Source: an uncultured Eubacteriales bacterium (GTDB taxonomy: Bacteria; Bacillota; Clostridia; Christensenellales; DTU072). Taken from it: a stretch of DNA of 32,049 bases. The translations under genes were made by a program, and so were the position numbers. The notes under the pieces were generated by a model. That model was not told where the DNA came from. It saw only the letters and a program-made list of their open reading frames with translations, and made no database searches. The stretch lies in contig CASFAV010000003.1 of NCBI GenBank assembly GCA_949292905.1, forward strand, positions 1-32,049, read 5' to 3'. Of this stretch, positions 1,961-32,049 are shown one piece after another (the first letter of the stretch is position 1; every line of letters begins with the position of its first letter).

Positions 1961-4900
1961 TCTGTGTTCAGCCTTTTTTCTTTGCTTACTTCGGTTATAT
2001 TCCCAAGTAAGTCAACGGCGCATTTCTTCATCGATTTTACTGTTTTCAGACCTATATTTAAGGTATATGCGTTGTCATGCGATATAAATGTCGCCGCTCC
2101 GGTACTTCGATTTATACTCCTATAATAGAAATATCCGCTCATTGCTTTAAGCGGCAAGAGGGATTTGTCGTTAGGCGCAAGATTGAAGCTGCGGTTGTTC
2201 TCGATATATACGAGATCGTTGGGATACAATGCAAATAAGAATTCGTAGGTTTCGTCTATTATATCCCATTCGTCGTAAGACTTATTTGCGGTAATCGCTC
2301 TGTTAGGTAGCTTTTTCGCGGCGATGTCGCTCGTGTATACGGGTACGCAGTAGAATTTACCGTTTTTGGTAAAAACGTCGGTTCTTACGATACTGTCGAA
2401 TTCGGCAACGGCTTTGCCGTTGGGGAAGCGGAAGCCGTGATTGAATACGTCGTCTATGAGCACGCTTTTGACTATCGGCGCTTTGGACGGGTCGGCGGAG
2501 GGCTTGCGGAAAGGTTCCTTGAATGCGAGTTTCGCTTCTCCGTCAAATTCTTTAAGCCGTGTTAGAAGCGCTTCGTACAGCGCGCGGTCGTCGCGCATGG
2601 CTTGCTCGTTATAGCCTGCGATAGCGTCTTTTGCGGCAGTGAGTTTAAGCTTGGTAAGCGCTGTTTTGAGCGTTGAGACGCCTTTGTCGATATAGCGAGC
2701 GGAGCGTATGGTTTCTTTGTGCAGGGCGCCGCGCGCGCCGCGAGAGGGCGCGCGGGAAACGAATATCGCTTTAATCGAAGTGATTTCATCTTCCGAATAG
2801 CCGAGCGACCTGAGCATATCGGTATCGTAGTACACGCTTTCTTGAGGATCGCCGTCGAGGCGAAGCAGGAGTTCTCTGCGGAAATGCTCGTACGGCTCTT
2901 TCAGCGTGCCGTATTTTGCGTCATATTCGTCTGCGGTAAGCACTTCGCCGTCGGAATCTATATATTCGTATTTTTGCGATTCTTTGTTAAAACGCTTGAC
3001 GCAACTTTCTTTGAGCTTGCTGTACTCGGTTATCTTCTTTACGGTCCCGTCCGTGACCAAAGCTATTACCGCCGCGTCCTGGGCGTGATGCTTGTCTCCG
3101 GCGCCGCGTATCTTGGTAAGCCCCCAGAATTTCCTTAAATAAGAGGTTATCCTTCCGTTTACGGCGGTCACCTGCTTCTTGCGACCTTCGACGGGGTCAA
3201 GCATGAGATAATCGTTGATCAGATTATATAAAAGTATAGAGCCGTATTTGGTGTCCTGCAACGCACGCGCTTTCCACTCGCGCGCGTTATCGTCGGTGAA
3301 CTTTTCGCGCAGAAGATTGGCGCGCTTTTTAGCGCTTGCGCTTTCTCTGTAGGTTGCGCGAACGAATTCGGTAAACTTACTCCATCTCTCGCCGTCGCCG
3401 AAATATTCGTAGGGGATACGGTTGCCTTTATTCCTGTTCTCCGCAGTCATTACGAGTACCTTATTTGAATAGCTGTCGTCGAACGAACGGCTGTAGGGTA
3501 TGATATGGTCGATCTCGGTGTATGTGGGATCCGTGAGCAAGCGTTGTGCGTCTATCACGCTTTGACTGTATGCGCACTTGCAACCTTGTTCCTCGTATAG
3601 TCTATACTTGAGTATGTCGGTAGCGGTCACGCGGGTAAGCCCGTAAGTTTCTTTCAATAATTTCTCCGTTTCGCTACGGTTTTTTTCGCGTTCCTTGTTA
3701 TCTTTACCTATTTCGTCGCGTTCCTTGAACGGCTTGCCTATTTCGCGCGCCGTTTCGATATTTACCGCGCACGGGGAACCGTATTTGTCGATAAGCGCGT
3801 TAAGCACCTTCAAAGTTTGAGATACTGCCCTGCGTACGACGGGAGAAGTTACGGAATCCACAATCTCCTTCACGGCTTCGCCGCGCAATTTCACGGTCTT
3901 ATTCTTTCCCGCATGTGCTCCGGCTCCGCCCCATATTTCGGTGCATGCGTCGGTATATTTGTAACCGCTTTCGAGAAGTGGTATCAGCTTCTTCATGGCC
4001 TTGAACGACAGCGCGCCGAAAGTCGCACAGTCTATTCCGAGCAACGCGTCGCGCTCCGTCTCGCTCAATACCGAGCATACGTCGGTTTCGTCCATTCGTT
4101 TAAGGCGCTTTTGATCGGTTTTGCAATGCGACAGTATAACCGCAAGTATGTCTATAAGTTCGTTGTCGGAAGCGTTTGCCTCCGAAAGCGCCTTCCTTAT
4201 TTCGTTACTGCGGCGCATGCTCGCAAATACTGCGCGTTCTACTTCGTCGACTGTTTTTTCTTTGCCTTTTTTATCGCCTTGCGAATAGTTTATAAGATTA
4301 AAAATCGAAGTTTCGGGTATCTTTAACCATTTGCGCAGTTGCCCGAACTTAATTTCGTTTACGCTTTTTAATTTTTCGATCAAGAAAGAGCGTTCTTCGT
4401 CTGTAAGCCTGCGTTCTCCGTCAGCGCCGATTATTTTAAGATTGTTCAGCTTCTGTAGAGCGGTACAATATTCGTAAGTGTAGCTCGCTTTAGGCGCGCG
4501 ATCCTCGTCCGTATCGAATGTGCATTTGCCGACGTTGTAATTTTCTGTACGGTAGGGACTCGGCTTGCCAGGACCTTCGTCGTATTCGCGTTGCGAGAGG
4601 AAAATTTCCATGTATTTTTCTATCGTCGCGGAATCGATAACGCCGTAAGATTCCTGCTTGAGAAGAATAAGATTTATTTCGTCCTTGAGCCTTGCGCGGT
4701 ATACCGTTCTTCTGTAATCTCCGCCTTTGTTGCGTATACTGTATATGCGTTTCCCCTCGACTAGGCGCGAATATTCGGGGTCGAGATAGCACATCTCTCC
4801 TACGGTGCGGTAGCCTTTTTCTTTCATATAGGCTTCGTTTGCTTCTACCGCGGCAAGCAGTTTACCGCCTTCTTTAGTATTCTTTTCGCTTTTGCGGTTT

Positions 4901-5286
4901 GATTTGAAGCCGCGGTGCTTGGCAAAATATATCATTATCCGCGCAAGTTGCGTGCGCGTCAGTTCTTCGTCAAGTCCTTTTACTCTCAGATATACGAGAT
5001 CGTCGCGATTTTCGTTAGCTTCGGCAAGGACGTTTTCTCCCCATTTCATTCCGATGAGATTCCTTACCCGCTCCACTCTGTGCGCTCTGCGTCTTATAAG
5101 TCGACGCAGGCTTCTCGCGGCTCTGCGTTGCGCCGCGCCCGTTTTGCCGGTTTTAGCTTCTTCCGGAATGTCGAATATGCGCGTTCCGAGATCGAGTATT
5201 CTTAATGGTTCGCCGTATTCGTTGCAGCCTATAGCCGCGAAACCTACCGATTCGATGCCGACGTCTAAACCTATGCGATATTTCAT
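1948..5286 (-). CDS. cas9: CRISPR-associated endonuclease Cas9, type II-C
   Basis: RNA-guided double-strand DNA nuclease, 1112 residues, close to the compact size of II-C Cas9 proteins. Domains in order: RuvC-I at the N terminus with catalytic Asp8 in GLDVGIESVG; an Arg-rich bridge helix at about 52-78; a recognition lobe to about 490; RuvC-II with Glu511 in NIETAREIG; an HNH domain with His594 in EIDHIIPYSRSFDDS; RuvC-III with His734 and Asp737 in HHAQDA; and a C-terminal PAM-interacting region from roughly 830. All catalytic residues are present, so both strand-cutting activities should be intact. The ATG at 5286 follows GGAGGAG at the right distance. A 16-residue upstream extension would run into the tracrRNA and is not needed. 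The PAM cannot be read from the sequence. Confidence 0.97.
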   Translation of the reverse strand: MKYRIGLDVGIESVGFAAIGCNEYGEPLRILDLGTRIFDIPEEAKTGKTGAAQRRAARSLRRLIRRRAHRVERVRNLIGMKWGENVLAEANENRDDLVYLRVKGLDEELTRTQLARIMIYFAKHRGFKSNRKSEKNTKEGGKLLAAVEANEAYMKEKGYRTVGEMCYLDPEYSRLVEGKRIYSIRNKGGDYRRTVYRARLKDEINLILLKQESYGVIDSATIEKYMEIFLSQREYDEGPGKPSPYRTENYNVGKCTFDTDEDRAPKASYTYEYCTALQKLNNLKIIGADGERRLTDEERSFLIEKLKSVNEIKFGQLRKWLKIPETSIFNLINYSQGDKKGKEKTVDEVERAVFASMRRSNEIRKALSEANASDNELIDILAVILSHCKTDQKRLKRMDETDVCSVLSETERDALLGIDCATFGALSFKAMKKLIPLLESGYKYTDACTEIWGGAGAHAGKNKTVKLRGEAVKEIVDSVTSPVVRRAVSQTLKVLNALIDKYGSPCAVNIETAREIGKPFKERDEIGKDNKEREKNRSETEKLLKETYGLTRVTATDILKYRLYEEQGCKCAYSQSVIDAQRLLTDPTYTEIDHIIPYSRSFDDSYSNKVLVMTAENRNKGNRIPYEYFGDGERWSKFTEFVRATYRESASAKKRANLLREKFTDDNAREWKARALQDTKYGSILLYNLINDYLMLDPVEGRKKQVTAVNGRITSYLRKFWGLTKIRGAGDKHHAQDAAVIALVTDGTVKKITEYSKLKESCVKRFNKESQKYEYIDSDGEVLTADEYDAKYGTLKEPYEHFRRELLLRLDGDPQESVYYDTDMLRSLGYSEDEITSIKAIFVSRAPSRGARGALHKETIRSARYIDKGVSTLKTALTKLKLTAAKDAIAGYNEQAMRDDRALYEALLTRLKEFDGEAKLAFKEPFRKPSADPSKAPIVKSVLIDDVFNHGFRFPNGKAVAEFDSIVRTDVFTKNGKFYCVPVYTSDIAAKKLPNRAITANKSYDEWDIIDETYEFLFALYPNDLVYIENNRSFNLAPNDKSLLPLKAMSGYFYYRSINRSTGAATFISHDNAYTLNIGLKTVKSMKKCAVDLLGNITEVSKEKRLNTEWDS

Positions 5287-5305
5287 AGTTTCTCCTCCGT
5301 ATCCG

Positions 5306-5311
5306 ATTATA
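5306..5311 (-). promoter_or_regulatory. Possible cas9 -10 element at the 3' end of the tracrRNA
   Basis: A perfect TATAAT on the minus strand lies just downstream of the last tracrRNA hairpin and 19 bases before the cas9 start. Transcription from it would begin near 5299, directly before the ribosome site. There is no good -35 hexamer, so the call is weak. The alternative is that cas9 depends on readthrough from the tracrRNA promoter. Confidence 0.35.
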
Positions 5312-5406
5312 AAGATGTCCCTGCGAAAAAACACAGGGACAGAGCTTTGCGGGAAAAATCCCTTATTTTAGTAACCTTTAATTCTTTGGTATGGTATAAA
5401 GTTACT
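5308..5406 (-). ncRNA. tracrRNA of the type II-C system
   Basis: The anti-repeat at 5365-5400 is complementary to the CRISPR repeat at 31 of 36 positions; mismatches are at repeat positions 1, 9, 10, 17 and 36. Reading on along the minus strand there is a short hairpin GGGATTTTTCCC (5351-5362), then GCAAAGCTCT, then a hairpin with arms CAGGGAC/GTCCCTG (5317-5340) and a tail ATCTTTATAA. The order, and the motif CGCAAxGCTCTG followed by a C-rich hairpin and an ATCxTTTAT tail, matches my memory of the Neisseria meningitidis tracrRNA. The 5' end is inferred from the promoter at 5413-5441. It lies directly upstream of cas9 in the same direction. Confidence 0.93.
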
Positions 5407-5412
5407 ATTAAC

Positions 5413-5441
5413 AGTATAAACCGACGGGGAGCTCGTGTCAA
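5413..5441 (-). promoter_or_regulatory. tracrRNA promoter
   Basis: On the minus strand, TTGACA at 5441-5436 and TATACT at 5418-5413 are separated by 17 bp. The predicted start is near 5406, about six bases before the anti-repeat. It is among the strongest promoters in the window. It may also supply cas9-cas1-cas2 if transcription passes the tracrRNA terminator. Confidence 0.85.
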
Positions 5442-5496
5442 GAGTGATAATTATAAATTTTGGCGTTAATTCTTTATGAAGGCTTTTTGAAACATA

Positions 5497-5525
5497 TTGA
5501 CGGATAGGGCGAGGTATCGTAGAAT
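5497..5525 (+). promoter_or_regulatory. Promoter of the first GPH symporter
   Basis: TTGACG and TAGAAT are separated by 17 bp, with a predicted start near 5532. This leaves a leader of about 49 bases before the ATG at 5581. Confidence 0.65.
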
Positions 5526-5580
5526 AAATATGTGTCGCGCGTATGTGCGCGTAAGAAATTCTGTATAAAGGAGAGTTCGT

Positions 5581-7065
5581 ATGGATGACAATACCACTCC
5601 GGTAACGCCCGTAACTCAGGTTCAGGAAAATTCGGGTAAAAGCGGTCTGCCGCCTTTCGGTTGGAAAGACAAGATCGGTTACGCCCTCGGCGATTTCGGC
5701 TGTAACCTGAGCTTTGCGCTTATTTCCGCTTTTATGGTGGACTTCTACACGCAATACATCGGGATACCTTCCGCGGCGTGGGCGGTCATCATCATTCTCA
5801 CCAAGGTGTGGGACGGCGTCAACGACCCCATTATGGGCGGTATTATGGACGCCGTTCATATCAAAAATACCAAAAGTAAGTTCAAGCCATGGATGAGTAT
5901 CGGCGCTATAGGACTTATCGTATCGGGAGCACTCGTATTCCTGCCGATACCGAACGCCGCTACCTGGGTGAAAATAACCGTTTGCGTGGTGACGTATCTT
6001 CTCTGGGATATCTGCTATACCTTGCTTAACGTGCCGTACGGCGCATTGAGCAGCGCCATAACCGGCGATTCCATCGAACGCACGCAGCTTTCCACTTGGC
6101 GCAGTATAGGAGCCGCGATAGGCGGGGCGCTTTGCGTAATACTTCCGTTGTTCGTCTACGACGACAACAACAATATCATCGGCGGCAGGCTCATATGGAT
6201 AGGCATCATTCTGGGCGGTATAGCTTACGTCGCGTATATGTTCTGTCTTAAACTTACTACCGAGCGCGTCGTCGTCCCGAAAGCCGAAAAACAGAAATTC
6301 AATTACATCAAGACCATCAAAGGCTTCCTGCATAACCGTCCGCTTCTCGGACTGTGCCTTGCGTCCTTTGCGCAGATAGTGTTCCTCATGTCCTGCACGC
6401 AGACCGCGAAGTGGCTTTTCCAGGTGCATTTCGGTAACGCCGACGTAATGGTCACGGTGGCGACGGTCATCGCGTATCTGCCGATGGTATTCTTCATTCC
6501 TTTCACTTCGAAAATAGTCAAGAAATTCGGCACGAAACTTGCCGTCGCGGCACCGCTGTTCTTGAGCCTTGCCGCTTCGCTCGTGATGATGTTCGTACCC
6601 ATGCCCGCGACGACCGGAGGAACGGTCACGTTCATATTAGGGCTGATGCTCGTACAGACGGGCGGCGGACTTTTCAGCCTGCTTGCCTGGGCGATGGTCA
6701 ACGACTGCATAGACTATCAGCAGATCAAGACTGGCTCCCGCGACGAAGGAAGCGTGTATGCGCTCTACAGTCTTTTCCGTAAAATTTCGCAGGGCGTGGC
6801 GCTCTCGCTTCCGCTCCTCTGCATGGAAGCCGTGGGGTATAACGCCAAAGCCAATCCCATAACCGCGCAGGAAGCGGGCGTCGCCGAAAAAATGGTCACG
6901 GTGTCCTTCGTACTGATGTTCGTCGGCGCGGCTCTCATGCTCGTAGCGTTTTTCCTCGTGTACAATCTCGGTAAAAAACAGGTGGAAGCGAATTCCGCTC
7001 TGCTCGGCAAGACCAACGACATAAGTCTTACCGACGTTCTCGGCGAAACCGCGGACAAAGACTGA
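5581..7065 (+). CDS. GPH-family sugar:cation symporter (MelB/XylP-like)
   Basis: A 494-residue inner-membrane transporter with about twelve hydrophobic segments, of the glycoside-pentoside-hexuronide family that imports sugars or glycosides with a cation. Family signs include the KIGYALGDFGCNLSF start with the conserved Asp, the WDGVNDPIMGGIMD segment after TM2, and the YQQIKTGSRDEGSVYALYSL segment late in the protein. The N-terminal 25 residues are polar and rich in Thr, Pro and Gln. An AAAGGAGAG ribosome site precedes the ATG. It is transcribed away from the cas locus, alone, and ends in a good terminator. No glycosidase is next to it, so the substrate is unknown. A paralogue lies at 28345. 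Confidence 0.9.
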   Translation: MDDNTTPVTPVTQVQENSGKSGLPPFGWKDKIGYALGDFGCNLSFALISAFMVDFYTQYIGIPSAAWAVIIILTKVWDGVNDPIMGGIMDAVHIKNTKSKFKPWMSIGAIGLIVSGALVFLPIPNAATWVKITVCVVTYLLWDICYTLLNVPYGALSSAITGDSIERTQLSTWRSIGAAIGGALCVILPLFVYDDNNNIIGGRLIWIGIILGGIAYVAYMFCLKLTTERVVVPKAEKQKFNYIKTIKGFLHNRPLLGLCLASFAQIVFLMSCTQTAKWLFQVHFGNADVMVTVATVIAYLPMVFFIPFTSKIVKKFGTKLAVAAPLFLSLAASLVMMFVPMPATTGGTVTFILGLMLVQTGGGLFSLLAWAMVNDCIDYQQIKTGSRDEGSVYALYSLFRKISQGVALSLPLLCMEAVGYNAKANPITAQEAGVAEKMVTVSFVLMFVGAALMLVAFFLVYNLGKKQVEANSALLGKTNDISLTDVLGETADKD

Positions 7066-28311: not shown

Positions 28312-28344
28312 CTATTTGTATGTTTTCGAGGAGAAATTGCCGGA

Positions 28345-29820
28345 ATGTTGAAGTGGCTACGTAAATTTTTCGAGTATAAACCCGACAGGGAAGTGCAGAA
28401 CAAAGAGCTTGTGGATTTTGCCATAGGCGTTGCGGGACAGAATCAGGCTTACAATATAGTCAGCAGTTGGTTCATGTATTTCTGTACGGACGTGCTTTTT
28501 ATGAATACGCTTTTCATAGGCACGGTACTCGGCGCGATGCGTATATGGGACGCGTTCAACGACCCGCTCGTCGGTACGATAGTGGACAGACACGTTTTCA
28601 AGAACGGCGAAAAATTGCGTCCCTTCCTCAAAATCACCGCTATTCCGATAGGTATCCTTACCGCGTTGATGTTCGTGGACTGGGGCATGCCGGAGTCCTG
28701 GACGGGCGTATACATCACGGTGATTTACTTCCTTTGGGATTTCCTGTATTCCTTCCAGGATCTTTCGATGTGGGGAATGACCGCGATGATATCCACGCAC
28801 TCATCGGAGCGCGCCCGCGCCGCGCAGTTCGGACGCATAGGCGCGATGGTGGGCGGCTGGATTCCCGGACTCATTCCGCTGATGATAGATTACCTTCCGG
28901 ACTTCGGTATCTCGGAGCTTGCGATATTTACCACGCTCGGCGTATTGATGGGTATCGGCGGTATGTCGATATCCATGTTCAGCGCGAAAGCGAAGGAGCG
29001 TTCCCCCGTTTATACTCCCGATTGTTCGCTCGGAGAATCGATAGGACTGATATTCAAGAACAAGATAGCGATGTCGCTCGTTATCGCGAGTATTTTAAGT
29101 AACTTCACCCTCGCCGTGCAGGACGTGTACTTCTTCAAATACATGGTATCCGTCAACATACTCGGCTTCCAGATGGACGGTATGACGGTTAAATTCTTTT
29201 ACGGCATACTTGTAGGGCTTCCGGGGACTCTGATGATGTTCGTCGCGACCTGGTTCGCGCGGAAAATAGGCGGAATGAAGCGTGTGCTTATCCTCGGCAC
29301 TTCTATGAATATAATTATGCGCGTGATATCCTATTTTATAGGGTTCGAAGGCTGGAGAATTTTCGTGGTCATAGGACTTATGGCGCTCGCCGGAATACCG
29401 AATAACCTTAACGGCATAGCTTCCACCGCCATATGGGGCGACAGCATCGATTATATGGAATGGAAGACGGGGCACCGCAGCGAAGGAAGCGTGTTCGCGC
29501 TTCAGAATCTCGTCGCGAAAATAGGTACGGCGCTCAGTACGTTCACTACCGGTCTTACGCTCACTATAATGAAGTTCGACGCCACGAAGTACGATCAGGG
29601 ACTTCCGCAGGATCCGCTGTTCTATAAACTGATATGGCCGTTCTTCATGCTTGCTCCCGCGCTCGGCTCGGTATTCTATCTGATACCGCTTCTGATGCTC
29701 AAGTATGACGAGAAACAGAAAGCGGCTGTGGAAAAAGAACTCTATGCGCGAAGACACCGCGCCGAACTCGAAGCGGAGGCGTCGCCCGACGGCAATGTGC
29801 TCGACATGCCTATTTATTGA
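28345..29820 (+). CDS. GPH-family sugar:cation symporter (second copy)
   Basis: A 491-residue inner-membrane transporter of the same family as the one at 5581, but clearly diverged. Shared landmarks are the RIWDAFNDPLVGTIVDR segment after TM2 and the MEWKTGHRSEGSVFALQNL segment late in the chain. The N terminus is amphipathic (MLKWLRKFFEYKPDRE). About twelve hydrophobic segments are present. GAGGAGAAA precedes the ATG. It is a single gene between two terminators, and no sugar-degrading enzyme is adjacent, so the substrate is unknown. Confidence 0.88.
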   Translation: MLKWLRKFFEYKPDREVQNKELVDFAIGVAGQNQAYNIVSSWFMYFCTDVLFMNTLFIGTVLGAMRIWDAFNDPLVGTIVDRHVFKNGEKLRPFLKITAIPIGILTALMFVDWGMPESWTGVYITVIYFLWDFLYSFQDLSMWGMTAMISTHSSERARAAQFGRIGAMVGGWIPGLIPLMIDYLPDFGISELAIFTTLGVLMGIGGMSISMFSAKAKERSPVYTPDCSLGESIGLIFKNKIAMSLVIASILSNFTLAVQDVYFFKYMVSVNILGFQMDGMTVKFFYGILVGLPGTLMMFVATWFARKIGGMKRVLILGTSMNIIMRVISYFIGFEGWRIFVVIGLMALAGIPNNLNGIASTAIWGDSIDYMEWKTGHRSEGSVFALQNLVAKIGTALSTFTTGLTLTIMKFDATKYDQGLPQDPLFYKLIWPFFMLAPALGSVFYLIPLLMLKYDEKQKAAVEKELYARRHRAELEAEASPDGNVLDMPIY

Positions 29821-29860
29821 CGGCAGGCGTTGCATAACGTGTTTCAAGTTGACAGTGACG

Positions 29861-29893
29861 AAAGGGGAGGTCGCACTTCGCGACCTCCCCTTT
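29861..29893. terminator. Shared terminator of the GPH symporter and Spo0A-like gene
   Basis: A perfect 14-bp stem pairs 29861-29874 with 29880-29893 around ACTTC. The T tracts are short on both strands (CTTTCTATG on plus), but the stem is very stable. Confidence 0.75.
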
Positions 29894-29926
29894 CTATGGG
29901 GGAAATAAAGAAAGTGGGTATGGTCT

Positions 29927-30658
29927 TTACGAATACTCTATCATCAGCTTATCGGCGATAAGCGCGATGAGTTCTCCGTTAGTGGGTTTCTCGCCCTTGG
30001 CGAATATCTTAATGCCGTAGATATTGTTGATGTTTTCTATTTTTCCGCGCGACCATGCGACTTCTATAGCGTGGCGTATTGCGCGCTCTACCTTCGACGG
30101 GCTCGTGGCGAATTTGTCCGCCACCGCGGGATAAAGTTCCTTCGTTATATTGTTGATCATTTCGGGTAGTTTGACCGTCTGCTTGACGGCTTCTCTGAGG
30201 AATTGATATCCTTTGATGTGCGGAGGTATCCCCGCCGATATGAAGATGTTTGCGATGCGCTCGTCGAGAGCGCGTTCCCGCGTCAGTTTCAGCTCGATCT
30301 GCTTGTTGTTCTTTTCCGTGCCGCTCGCTTCTATTATCGCGTCGGCTATGTACGCGCAACCTCTCGACGGATTGACGAGCGCGTCTGCGTATGCGCCTTC
30401 TCCGTTCCCTTCGGTTATGATCACGACGGTAGGGGATTCGGGTATCGCCTTTACGTATTCCGTAAAACTTTTGAGCTCGGCTACGTCTTTCGTACCGTAT
30501 ACCGCCACTGCCGACGGTGCGCGCTCGTTGAGCACGCTACGAGCTTCCGCGTAACCGTCGGCTGCCGCCGTAACTTTGAGTTCGAGCGGTCGCGCCATCT
30601 TCAATCCCTGTAATTCGGCATTGGGAAAACCTACCGCGAGGCAGGAAACAGCGTTCAT
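29927..30658 (-). CDS. spo0A: Spo0A homologue with degenerate receiver domain
   Basis: A 243-residue transcription factor. Residues from about 125 to the end match the Spo0A DNA-binding domain: IPPHIKGYQFLREAV, ITKELYPAVADKF, SKVERAIRHAIEVAWSRG and KPTNGELIALIADKL are near-identical to the family core. The N-terminal ~110 residues have receiver-like size and strand-helix order, but the phosphorylation residues are gone: the Asp-Asp pocket near residue 10 reads AVGFPN, the phosphoacceptor position is Tyr54 in AVAVYGTKD, and the KP motif reads VNPS. It probably works without phosphorelay input. GGAGG precedes the ATG. In Bacillus, Spo0A controls entry into sporulation; the role here is open. 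Confidence 0.9.
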   Translation of the reverse strand: MNAVSCLAVGFPNAELQGLKMARPLELKVTAAADGYAEARSVLNERAPSAVAVYGTKDVAELKSFTEYVKAIPESPTVVIITEGNGEGAYADALVNPSRGCAYIADAIIEASGTEKNNKQIELKLTRERALDERIANIFISAGIPPHIKGYQFLREAVKQTVKLPEMINNITKELYPAVADKFATSPSKVERAIRHAIEVAWSRGKIENINNIYGIKIFAKGEKPTNGELIALIADKLMIEYS

Positions 30659-30787
30659 ACTATATAATCCTCCGATCTATTTACTTCCTTTTATTCTTTT
30701 TCCCGGATATTTCGCCCGACTTTACGGGTCTTTTGCGTAAATAACGTTCGCGTTTGGCGAATGTTAGCATTTTTTGTTTGCGTTCAC

Positions 30788-30816
30788 ATTATAGCACGCC
30801 CTTTTTCGGGGTGCAA
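30788..30816 (-). promoter_or_regulatory. Promoter of the spo0A-like gene
   Basis: On the minus strand, TTGCAC and TATAAT are separated by 17 bp, and the -10 is extended (TGCTATAAT). The predicted start is near 30781. Confidence 0.75.
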
Positions 30817-30836
30817 GTTATTTTTGTAAAAAATTA

Positions 30837-30843
30837 TGTCGAA
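30837..30843 (+). promoter_or_regulatory. Spo0A-box-like heptamer
   Basis: TGTCGAA matches the core of the Bacillus 0A box exactly. It lies 20 bp upstream of the -35 of the spo0A-like gene and about 80 bp upstream of the -35 of the ABC operon. A single heptamer can occur by chance, so this is only suggestive. Confidence 0.35.
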
Positions 30844-30924
30844 TAATTTATAATTTTGTAAAAAAATATCCCGAACGGTGCTCTGCGGGTATCCGTAATT
30901 CGTCCGATAAAATGCTTCAAACGG

Positions 30925-30953
30925 TTGACTTTGCCGCTTTAGCGTGTTAAATT
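30925..30953 (+). promoter_or_regulatory. Promoter of the ABC transporter operon
   Basis: TTGACT and TAAATT are separated by 17 bp. The predicted start is near 30960; AAGGAGG follows before the ATG at 30987. Confidence 0.68.
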
Positions 30954-30986
30954 ATTATCGTCTATAACGACAAGGAGGCTATCAAG

Positions 30987-31829
30987 ATGAAGAAAATTTT
31001 AACCGTTTTACTTATCGTCGTGCTGTGCGTGGCGACCGTATTGACCGCCGTCGCGTGCACTTCTTCCGAGCTTAATTTCGGCAAAAAACTCGTCAAGACC
31101 GGCGCGATGATAGATATTCTCACCGAACTCACCGCCAAAACCGCCGACGTAGGCATTATGGACAGCATAATGGCGAACTATTATCTCACCATCAATCCCA
31201 CATACGCTTCTCAATTACAGCTCGTAGAAGGGCTCGTGCTTGCGGAAGAGGAGTACGGTATAGCCGCGCGCAAGAACGCGAAATCCACGATCTATAAAGT
31301 GAATTACGCGCTCAAGGCGCTCAAGGCGGACGGCACCGTCAACGAGATAGCCGCCGAATACGGTCTCGTCAACGAACTCGTTATCGACGGAAGCGCCGAT
31401 ATAGGCAACGAGCCTACCGACGCGGACTGGAGCGAGATCATCAAGGACGGCAAAATTAAAATAGGATATACCGTATTCGCGCCCATAGCTTATACCGACG
31501 CCAACGGTAAACTTATCGGATTCGACACCGAGCTCGCCGAAGCCGTTGCCGAATACTACGGCTTGACTGCTGAATTCATCGAGATACAGTGGGATTCCAA
31601 GACCATGGAGCTTGAGAGCAAGAACATCGACCTCATCTGGAACGGAATGACCATCACCGACGAGATCAAGGCGGCTTGCGAAATAAGCATTCCTTATCTT
31701 CAGAACCGTCAGGTCGCCGTCATCCGTAAGGCGGACGCCGACAAGTATACCAAAGACACTTCGACGATGAGCGACGCCGTTATCGCCGCGGAGAGCGGTT
31801 CCGCAGGACAAGCCGTCGTGGAAAAATAA
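30987..31829 (+). CDS. Circularly permuted ABC transporter substrate-binding lipoprotein
   Basis: A 280-residue extracytoplasmic binding protein of the polar-amino-acid (GlnH/HisJ) family with its halves in reversed order. Residues 1-24 are a lipoprotein signal peptide ending in Cys24. Residues ~28-126 match the C-terminal part of the family: lobe 2 (KTADVGIMDSIMANYY, with Asp59), then EEYGIAARKN and ALKALKADGTVNEI, which normally end the protein. After a linker (~127-153), residues ~154-280 match the N-terminal part: GKIKIGYTVFAPIAYTDANG, LIGFDTELAEAVAEYYG, NIDLIWNGMTITDE, and they stop after AAESGSAGQAVVEK in mid-lobe 2. The two pieces together make one complete domain without duplication. 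AAGGAGG precedes the ATG; the permease starts 23 bases after the stop. Confidence 0.85.
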   Translation: MKKILTVLLIVVLCVATVLTAVACTSSELNFGKKLVKTGAMIDILTELTAKTADVGIMDSIMANYYLTINPTYASQLQLVEGLVLAEEEYGIAARKNAKSTIYKVNYALKALKADGTVNEIAAEYGLVNELVIDGSADIGNEPTDADWSEIIKDGKIKIGYTVFAPIAYTDANGKLIGFDTELAEAVAEYYGLTAEFIEIQWDSKTMELESKNIDLIWNGMTITDEIKAACEISIPYLQNRQVAVIRKADADKYTKDTSTMSDAVIAAESGSAGQAVVEK

Positions 31830-31852
31830 CCGAGTGACGGAGATCTGATCCG

Positions 31853-32049
31853 ATGCAACCGGAATTCTCGTATGTTATACAACATTTGATGTCGGGGTTC
31901 GGCGTCACTTGTACGATATTCTTCTTGACGCTCGTCATGGCGCTCCCGCTGGGACTGCTGATAGCGTTCGGTTCGATGTCGAATTTCAAACCCGTCAGAC
32001 TTATCACCCGCGCTTTCGTGTGGGTGATAAGAGGAACTCCGCTTATGTT
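31853..32049 (+). CDS. ABC transporter permease, amino-acid type (partial, runs off the window)
   Basis: The first 65 codons of an inner-membrane permease of the HisM/GlnP type. Visible are an amphipathic N terminus (MQPEFSYVIQHLMSGFGVT), the first membrane helix (TIFFLTLVMALPLGLLIAF) and the family motif VWVIRGTPLM where the window ends. GGAG lies ten bases before the ATG. It is the membrane partner of the binding protein upstream; an ATPase gene is expected beyond the window. Confidence 0.9.
   Translation, partial: MQPEFSYVIQHLMSGFGVTCTIFFLTLVMALPLGLLIAFGSMSNFKPVRLITRAFVWVIRGTPLM

Follow-up and report, generated by a model that had tools for sequence, protein, structure and literature searches.

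Can the two halves of a solute-binding protein (SBP) of an ABC importer change places along the chain, and if so, by what route? The question is raised by an intact 280-codon ORF, whose product is called P0001 here, near the end of the window, the whole stretch of 32,049 nucleotides from an uncultured Eubacteriales bacterium that was analyzed. An earlier note, written from the letters alone, had read this ORF as a GlnH-type binding protein in which the segment that normally ends the domain comes first. That reading held up. In a phmmer search of PDB sequences, residues 147–275 of the window protein matched residues 13–139 of 3hv1 (91.2 bits), and residues 32–123 matched residues 155–244 of the same chain (15.2 bits); 4zv1 was likewise matched in two parts (62.5 and 26.0 bits), also in swapped order.

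The same order emerged when the sequence was doubled so as to be read circularly. Against a profile built from ten native-order proteins and 43 rotated members of the family, one of them the window protein, the score rose from 218 bits as written to 368 bits doubled. Against a control profile made from 125 native-order domains and containing no permuted rows, it rose from 169 bits (profile positions 2–134) to 241 bits (positions 2–234), so that the permuted-order alignment is both longer and better than the native-order one. On the first profile the C terminus of the window protein falls at position 136, and most proteins cut at the same place (register A, see below) start their N-terminal stretch at 137 or 138. 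Thus, the break falls at about position 137, within lobe 2, and nothing is doubled or missing, as had been proposed. The structure model of the window protein is confident (pLDDT 92.9, pTM 0.84), and residues 143–280, the half that was compared, superpose on 4ohn with 1.7 Å over 135 residues. The Foldseek and VIA-align rows mostly covered residues 140–280 only; the top VIA-align row was 5jkq (PfVFT1), and a literature search turned up nothing on its topology. We conclude that the ORF encodes a GlnH-type SBP in swapped order, which is predicted to fold into a single domain of two lobes and to close on its ligand in the usual way.

The window protein scores 92.6 bits against PF00497 (SBP_bac_3; gathering score 26.4), in two stretches, and fails the canonical sequence of lobe 1, lobe 2, and return to lobe 1. 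By its sequence, then, we class it as a permuted relative and not as a canonical family-3 member like GlnH. It lies below the NCBIfam cutoffs for the lysine/arginine/ornithine, cystine, GlnH, ArtJ, and HisJ families (the best score was 88.2 bits for TIGR01096, with a cutoff of 256.35, and GlnH gave 68.2 against 303), as does a native relative scanned alongside it. No type I periplasmic-binding family appeared among its five Pfam hits at E ≤ 10. The features of the gene and its surroundings are listed in Table 1. The column of the predicted lipidated cysteine is invariant among 43 aligned family members.

Table 1. Features at the permuted SBP locus (positions in the window)
Feature	Position	Strand	Basis or remark
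MFS_2 transporter	28345..29820	+	Flank common to same-genus genomes G008 and G001, which have a native-order SBP there
Spo0A_C-domain gene	29927..30658	-	Between the flank gene and the operon
AGGAGG, Shine-Dalgarno-like	30973..30978	+	Sequence; 8 bases 5' of the ATG
Circularly permuted SBP gene, register A, 280 aa plus stop	30987..31829	+	Sequence, Pfam, phmmer, profile tests
Predicted lipoprotein signal peptide (residues 1–23) and Cys24 (predicted lipidation)	30987..31058	+	Sequence
Residues 28–126, native C-terminal segment (rest of lobe 2, return into lobe 1)	31068..31364	+	phmmer and profile
Asp59	31161..31163	+	Alignment of permuted and native domains
Residues 127–146, linker from native C-terminal end to native N-terminal end	31365..31424	+	Alignments
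Residues 147–280, native N-terminal segment (lobe 1, first part of lobe 2), terminating at the register-A break	31425..31826	+	phmmer, profile, superposition
Ile227	31665..31667	+	Arg (TITDER) here in 66/86 register-A domains
ABC permease (BPD_transp_1)	31853..32049	+	Gene extends past the window to 32506

Does the rearranged protein still serve a transporter? The window SBP is the first gene of an SBP-permease-ATPase operon: the stop codon is followed after 23 bases (31830–31852), as the earlier note had counted, by the BPD_transp_1 permease gene (31853–32506) and then by the gene for the ABC ATPase (32508–33335). Permease and ATPase follow the SBP in 131 of 136 permuted records (in the remaining five the available sequence stops within 2 kb) and in 49 of 57 native records. 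Among 13 later permuted records with longer flanks, 11 have both genes; L288 lies at a contig edge, and for L287 (genome G276, register B, SBP at 4857–5684 on the minus strand) neither permease nor ATPase was detected in 4.8 kb downstream. The window gene is under purifying selection, with dN/dS of 0.094 and 0.078 in comparison with its counterparts in genomes G010 and G012, respectively. The column of Asp59, which from the GlnH and LAO literature we take to bind the amino group of the ligand, holds Asp in all 165 permuted and in 119 of 120 native aligned domains, and the Trp, Ser, and Phe/Tyr positions of the binding site differ little between permuted and native order. The Arg of the TITxxR motif, presumably another binding-site residue, is found in 66 of 120 native domains and in 66 of 86, 24 of 28, 19 of 26, and 16 of 25 domains of registers A, B, C, and D, respectively; it is missing from 54 native domains and, being replaced by Ile227, from the window protein. 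The conserved Asp, the low dN/dS, and the operon together make it most likely that the window protein works as an ordinary SBP.

A gene of the Trp-repressor family (PF01371; 33332–33619, L353:9333-9620) overlaps the end of the ATPase gene just outside the window. Where at least 2.6 kb of downstream sequence was available, such a gene was present within that distance in 38 of 106 permuted operons and in 3 of 31 native ones, and from its occurrence downstream of many permuted operons tryptophan or a related amino acid might, by a weak inference, be the ligand. We also note that in one protein (P0132) a register-A SBP and its permease are fused into a single chain of 505 residues, and that in two loci the A gene is immediately preceded by another SBP-like gene, of diverged sequence: that of L039 (4882–5850) reads S1-S2-S4 in A order, for which the doubled test gave no confirmation, and that of L040 (4885–5823) is in native order by the doubled test.

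The window protein is far from alone. Its relatives occur in native order (N) and in four permuted registers (A, B, C, and D), for each of which there is a single cut site. The 347 ORF records correspond to 283 distinct proteins, of which 136 are N, 74 A, 29 B, 23 D, and 21 C. Doubling raised the score against the native-only profile by more than 10 bits in 185 of 187 permuted and in none of 160 native records; the two exceptions were L151 (C) and L332 (B), and a search for a signal peptide in the latter found none. In protein collections, 231 of 240 proteins read S1-S2-S3-S4 like the window protein, and of the 80 loci in species-level genomes, 78 were permuted (62 A, five B, nine C, and two D), the remaining two (L030 and L073) having been dropped because contig ends cut them; both searches were seeded by the window family, so neither is a census. 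The homologues of the same order that the earlier note had called for are plentiful. Records were dropped if their profile span was under 195–200 or their score under 95 (for counts) or 120 (for the tree), as was L208, cut by a contig end; the register of L330, L337, and L341 was ambiguous, and three rows first typed as "?119/?120" were assigned to register D from their C-terminal end.

How widely is permutation spread? Matches to profile A1, natives among them, were obtained at the level of the order in 159 of 248 genomes (E ≤ 1e-6), at that of the class in 194 of 291 (E ≤ 1e-20), and at that of the phylum in 91 of 299 (E ≤ 1e-25). Among genomes with typed loci, which were picked by score and interest and hence not at random, a permuted SBP was present in four of ten for the genus of the window, five of eight for the family, 44 of 80 for the order, 27 of 83 for the class, and two of 27 in the phylum's other classes. 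Among the relatives that have names are uncultured Clostridia, Christensenellaceae, Oscillospiraceae, and Bacilli, many of them, to judge by their titles, from animal gut samples. A separate amino-acid SBP subfamily (L101, L161, and L165–L168) is permuted too, in registers B and D, and permutation thus extends beyond one subfamily. Proteins in different registers can be close relatives: L083 (C) and L050 (A) are 75% identical, L203 (B) and L292 (N) 69%, L126 (D) and L298 (N) 68%, and L280 (D) and L268 (N) 67%. Three further proteins stand apart; P0123 and P0131 each come from one contig (2.8 and 2.2 kb, respectively) and are possible chimeras, and P0011 carries a partial family domain behind an unrelated N terminus.

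To follow the changes of order, 85 representatives were rotated to native order and placed on an unrooted maximum-likelihood tree (rows were thinned by identity, at 60% for A, 52% for N, 72% for C, and 75% for B and D). The best tree needs 18 register changes. Its starred, well-supported branches alone force at least ten switches between native and permuted order, and seven changes for D, five for B, three for A, and two for C; 22 of 82 inner branches are open, and deep branches are partly weak, the base of a mixed A/C/D group carrying 84/5. A single clade of all 59 permuted rows was rejected (p-AU 6.6e-6), as was one origin of the 13 D rows (p-AU 2e-5). Starred groupings join L083 (C) with L050 (A) and place L067, L070, and L071 (B) inside A; others unite D with native proteins, namely, L207 with L220, L279 and L280 with L177, and L159 with L099 (the native protein being named second). 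These trees imply that the order changed many times in the family, and the native order, which the solved relatives have, was probably ancestral. An apparent reversal from C to native order (L129 and L131, beside C proteins) was set aside: its support was weak, and the N termini of the two proteins resemble those of other natives.

Independent of the tree is a scar in the proteins themselves. After the lipid cysteine, 75 of 86 register-A proteins begin with a motif of a hydrophobic residue, Gly, and Lys (a motif defined after the sequences had been seen). This motif is sealed in mid-chain in five of 28 B proteins (L067, L069, L070, L072, and L089, of which L069 and L089 are the same protein) and in one of 26 C proteins (L083); in mid-chain it occurs in none of 25 D and three of 120 native proteins. 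The scar-bearing B group and L083 are those nested within A on the trees, and the remaining nested B protein, L071, has IGSEY at the scar position. From the sealed A motif it is likely that some B proteins and one C protein were permuted twice in succession, from native to A and then from A to B or C.

At the window's own locus the native order can still be seen in relatives of the same genus. G008 and G001 have a native-order SBP there. G008 is 86% identical in DNA to the window from 28339 to 31001, which reaches 15 bases into the SBP gene; there is no match across the rest of the SBP, 65% identity over 32016–32815, and 90% over 32927–33675, a stretch that begins within the ATPase gene. The downstream limit in G001 is nearly the same (78.5% over 32942–36799). 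Meanwhile, G010 and G012 have the A operon between the same flanks, at 93% and 89%–91% identity, respectively. The simplest reading of native and permuted operons at one locus with matching flanks is that the SBP-permease-ATPase allele was replaced by recombination, with A probably replacing native in the window's lineage.

By what route were the ends joined? The earlier note had proposed tandem duplication of the gene followed by loss of both outer halves. In all registers a linker, with a median of 11–15 unmatched residues, lies between the native C and N ends, which is the outcome expected from tandem duplication and subsequent trimming. Fused tandem SBPs also exist: 6h30 is the solved tandem SBD1-SBD2 of GlnPQ, and P0122, a 697-residue protein from 11 contigs, has three tandem SBP domains with both ends inside domains. 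No intermediate was seen in the genomes searched; the P0122 concatemer itself was found in none of 196 genomes (E ≤ 1e-40, a few best candidates being scored per genome) and on no viral contig. Thus, the proposed route is plausible, with its linker and tandem precedents in place and an intermediate absent from those genomes.

Proteins of one and a half copies, recovered with a doubled-P0001 query and then a P0137 query, were considered as intermediates and rejected. All from one subfamily, they comprise 14 with a full domain plus an N-half, 29 with a C-half plus a full domain, and one longer protein (P0241). By window-wise identity, examined in 16 of the 44, they appear to be mosaics of native and D sequences. 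In P0137, all 40-residue windows as far as residue 179 have an identical counterpart in a known native protein, and all of those from 180 onward have one in a known D protein, with a mixed window starting at 160; P0139 has nearly the same pattern. Switches between native-like and D-like sequence occur in the remaining 14 as well, weakly in P0252, P0262, and P0271, and for most of the 14 the verdict is softer, near-identical alleles being lacking. None was found in 291 genomes at E ≤ 1e-60 or in 250 at E ≤ 1e-100 (541 together, with a few best candidates scored in each). We therefore treat them as assembly chimeras or recombinants; P0137, P0139, and others of P0241–P0311, metagenome proteins of about 375–430 residues and apparently native/D chimeras, are a possible trap in hunting for duplication intermediates.

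The permuted proteins are, by prediction, nearly all lipoproteins. A lipobox was predicted in 185 of 187 permuted and 142 of 160 native records by a simple rule that sometimes selects a Cys inside the signal. The median leash from the lipid cysteine to the domain is four residues in A and three in C, compared with 11 in natives, eight in B, and nine in D. The anchor site lies on lobe 2 in A, B, and D and is retained on lobe 1 in C; register A would thus tether the window protein by lobe 2 instead of lobe 1, as had been suggested. Our best guess as to why permutation recurs, drawn from the leash lengths alone, is that it moves the membrane anchor to a new place on a fold tolerant of such cuts, and neutral drift on that fold is at least as likely. 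A bolder reading, less likely than not as a whole, is that in these Clostridia the SBP is repeatedly re-cut at the four sites, and in part rotated twice with scars to show for it, in operons that compete with native ones for one slot, because shifts of the anchor between lobes and a shorter leash retune docking on the permease.

The reading that we favor, at a probability of roughly 0.85, is that the window encodes a permuted GlnH-type lipoprotein SBP of an amino-acid ABC importer whose ends were linked, whose chain was re-opened, and whose operon was swapped in. The protein would be the ligand-catching subunit working with the adjoining permease and ATPase, with its lipid anchor attached to lobe 2 through a short leash. 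A linker would have joined the ends of the native chain, once or more and probably after tandem duplication, and the chain would have been re-opened at one of the four sites; some lineages would have been re-opened again, by way of native to A to B and native to A to C; and in the window's genus the permuted operon likely replaced the native one by recombination in flanking homology. That each register instead arose once and early, the scatter on the tree coming from horizontal transfer and poor resolution, is improbable. Operons do move, as the alternation of native and A at one locus in the window's genus attests, and some deep branches are weak; yet transfer moves genes between genomes and the tree is of the genes themselves, a single origin was rejected in both cases that the test covered (D and all permuted rows), pairs in different registers are as much as 67%–75% identical, and the scars indicate second events. 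A different route to the joined ends would be fission into half genes and refusion in the other order or reinsertion of a circular DNA copy. Few and discrete break points and the absence of a duplication intermediate from the genomes searched speak for it, the fused tandem SBPs speak for duplication, and we hold it to be a tentative, minority alternative.

Closest to even odds, although just short of them, is the view that permutation is neutral, the fold tolerating these cuts and recombination doing the remainder. Nearly all records of each register occupy the same operon position, the registers recur at the same four sites, and the binding-site positions are similar across orders, with no functional difference known. 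Against neutrality can be set the near-universal lipobox of the permuted records, the short leashes of A and C, and a permuted treponemal SBP that is also a tethered lipoprotein, for which its authors raised anchoring (PMC4990184, as far as the text consulted goes); most natives are lipoproteins too, however, and anchoring alone therefore does not separate the permuted forms. It is very unlikely that the window protein is the product of a gene in decay, or of one put to another use, with no transport role left: the Arg kept in most register-A domains has become Ile227, but many native domains lack it as well, the dN/dS is 0.08–0.09, and the operon is intact. As for an artefact of assembly or gene calling, the named relatives are metagenome-assembled or uncultured, but the window gene lies in a 229-kb contig, a B gene (L145) lies inside a 1.30-Mb contig, and recurrence of the order in so many genomes and proteins refutes the idea, in line with the earlier judgment that an assembly error was improbable; we give it next to no credence.

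How do these proteins compare with known systems? The two best solved relatives by sequence, the streptococcal polar amino-acid SBPs 3hv1 and 4ohn, match in both parts and, unlike the window protein, have the native order with lobe 1 first. The SBDs of GlnPQ, which are fused to its permease, belong to the same family and supply the two tandem domains that a duplication model requires, again in native order. The nearest precedent for a permuted SBP is TpMglB-2 (Tp0684), of "Cluster Bc", a natural, lipid-anchored, circularly permuted sugar SBP of an ABC importer, which binds glucose and changes conformation, whose topology is shared with relatives in spirochetes and in Gram-positive, often gut, bacteria, and whose topology, its authors proposed, may be an adaptation to anchoring (PMC4990184, in the portions consulted). 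The window protein resembles it in being a natural permuted SBP of an ABC importer with a lipid anchor, predicted in our case. The two differ in that TpMglB-2 is a type I, cluster B sugar binder with its new termini in the N lobe and a single permuted order described, whereas the window family is type II (family 3), has its new termini in lobe 2 in the case of the window protein, and comprises four registers with repeated and second-generation events (PMC4990184). In the DNA methyltransferases, a fold family with circular permutations, duplication intermediates are documented (Jeltsch 1999; Bujnicki 2002; both as reported in what we consulted of PMC3320104); those are enzymes, whereas here binding proteins alternate in register among close relatives at one operon position.

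Among the titles and abstract openings searched, with subscription journals mostly outside that search, TpMglB-2 was the one natural circularly permuted SBP that we recognized, and none reported four recurrent SBP registers at a single operon position together with second-generation scars. The earlier note had known of no natural example in this family, and within the literature searched that stands for the family; a permuted SBP does exist in another fold class. Circular permutation, one permuted SBP, and permutations within a family are thus already known; what is new, as far as this literature goes, is the recurrence of four registers of one SBP in one operon position, together with the second-generation scars.

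For those who annotate such genomes, these proteins carry a warning: models and aligners that depend on order match permuted SBPs piecewise. Most accounts of circular permutation treat it as a rare accident, seen between distant proteins. In this family one domain occurs in five orders, native and four permuted, at the same operon position, with pairs about 67%–75% identical across registers and with scars, and such close pairs and scars make the path, the rate, and the selective value of permutation directly testable.
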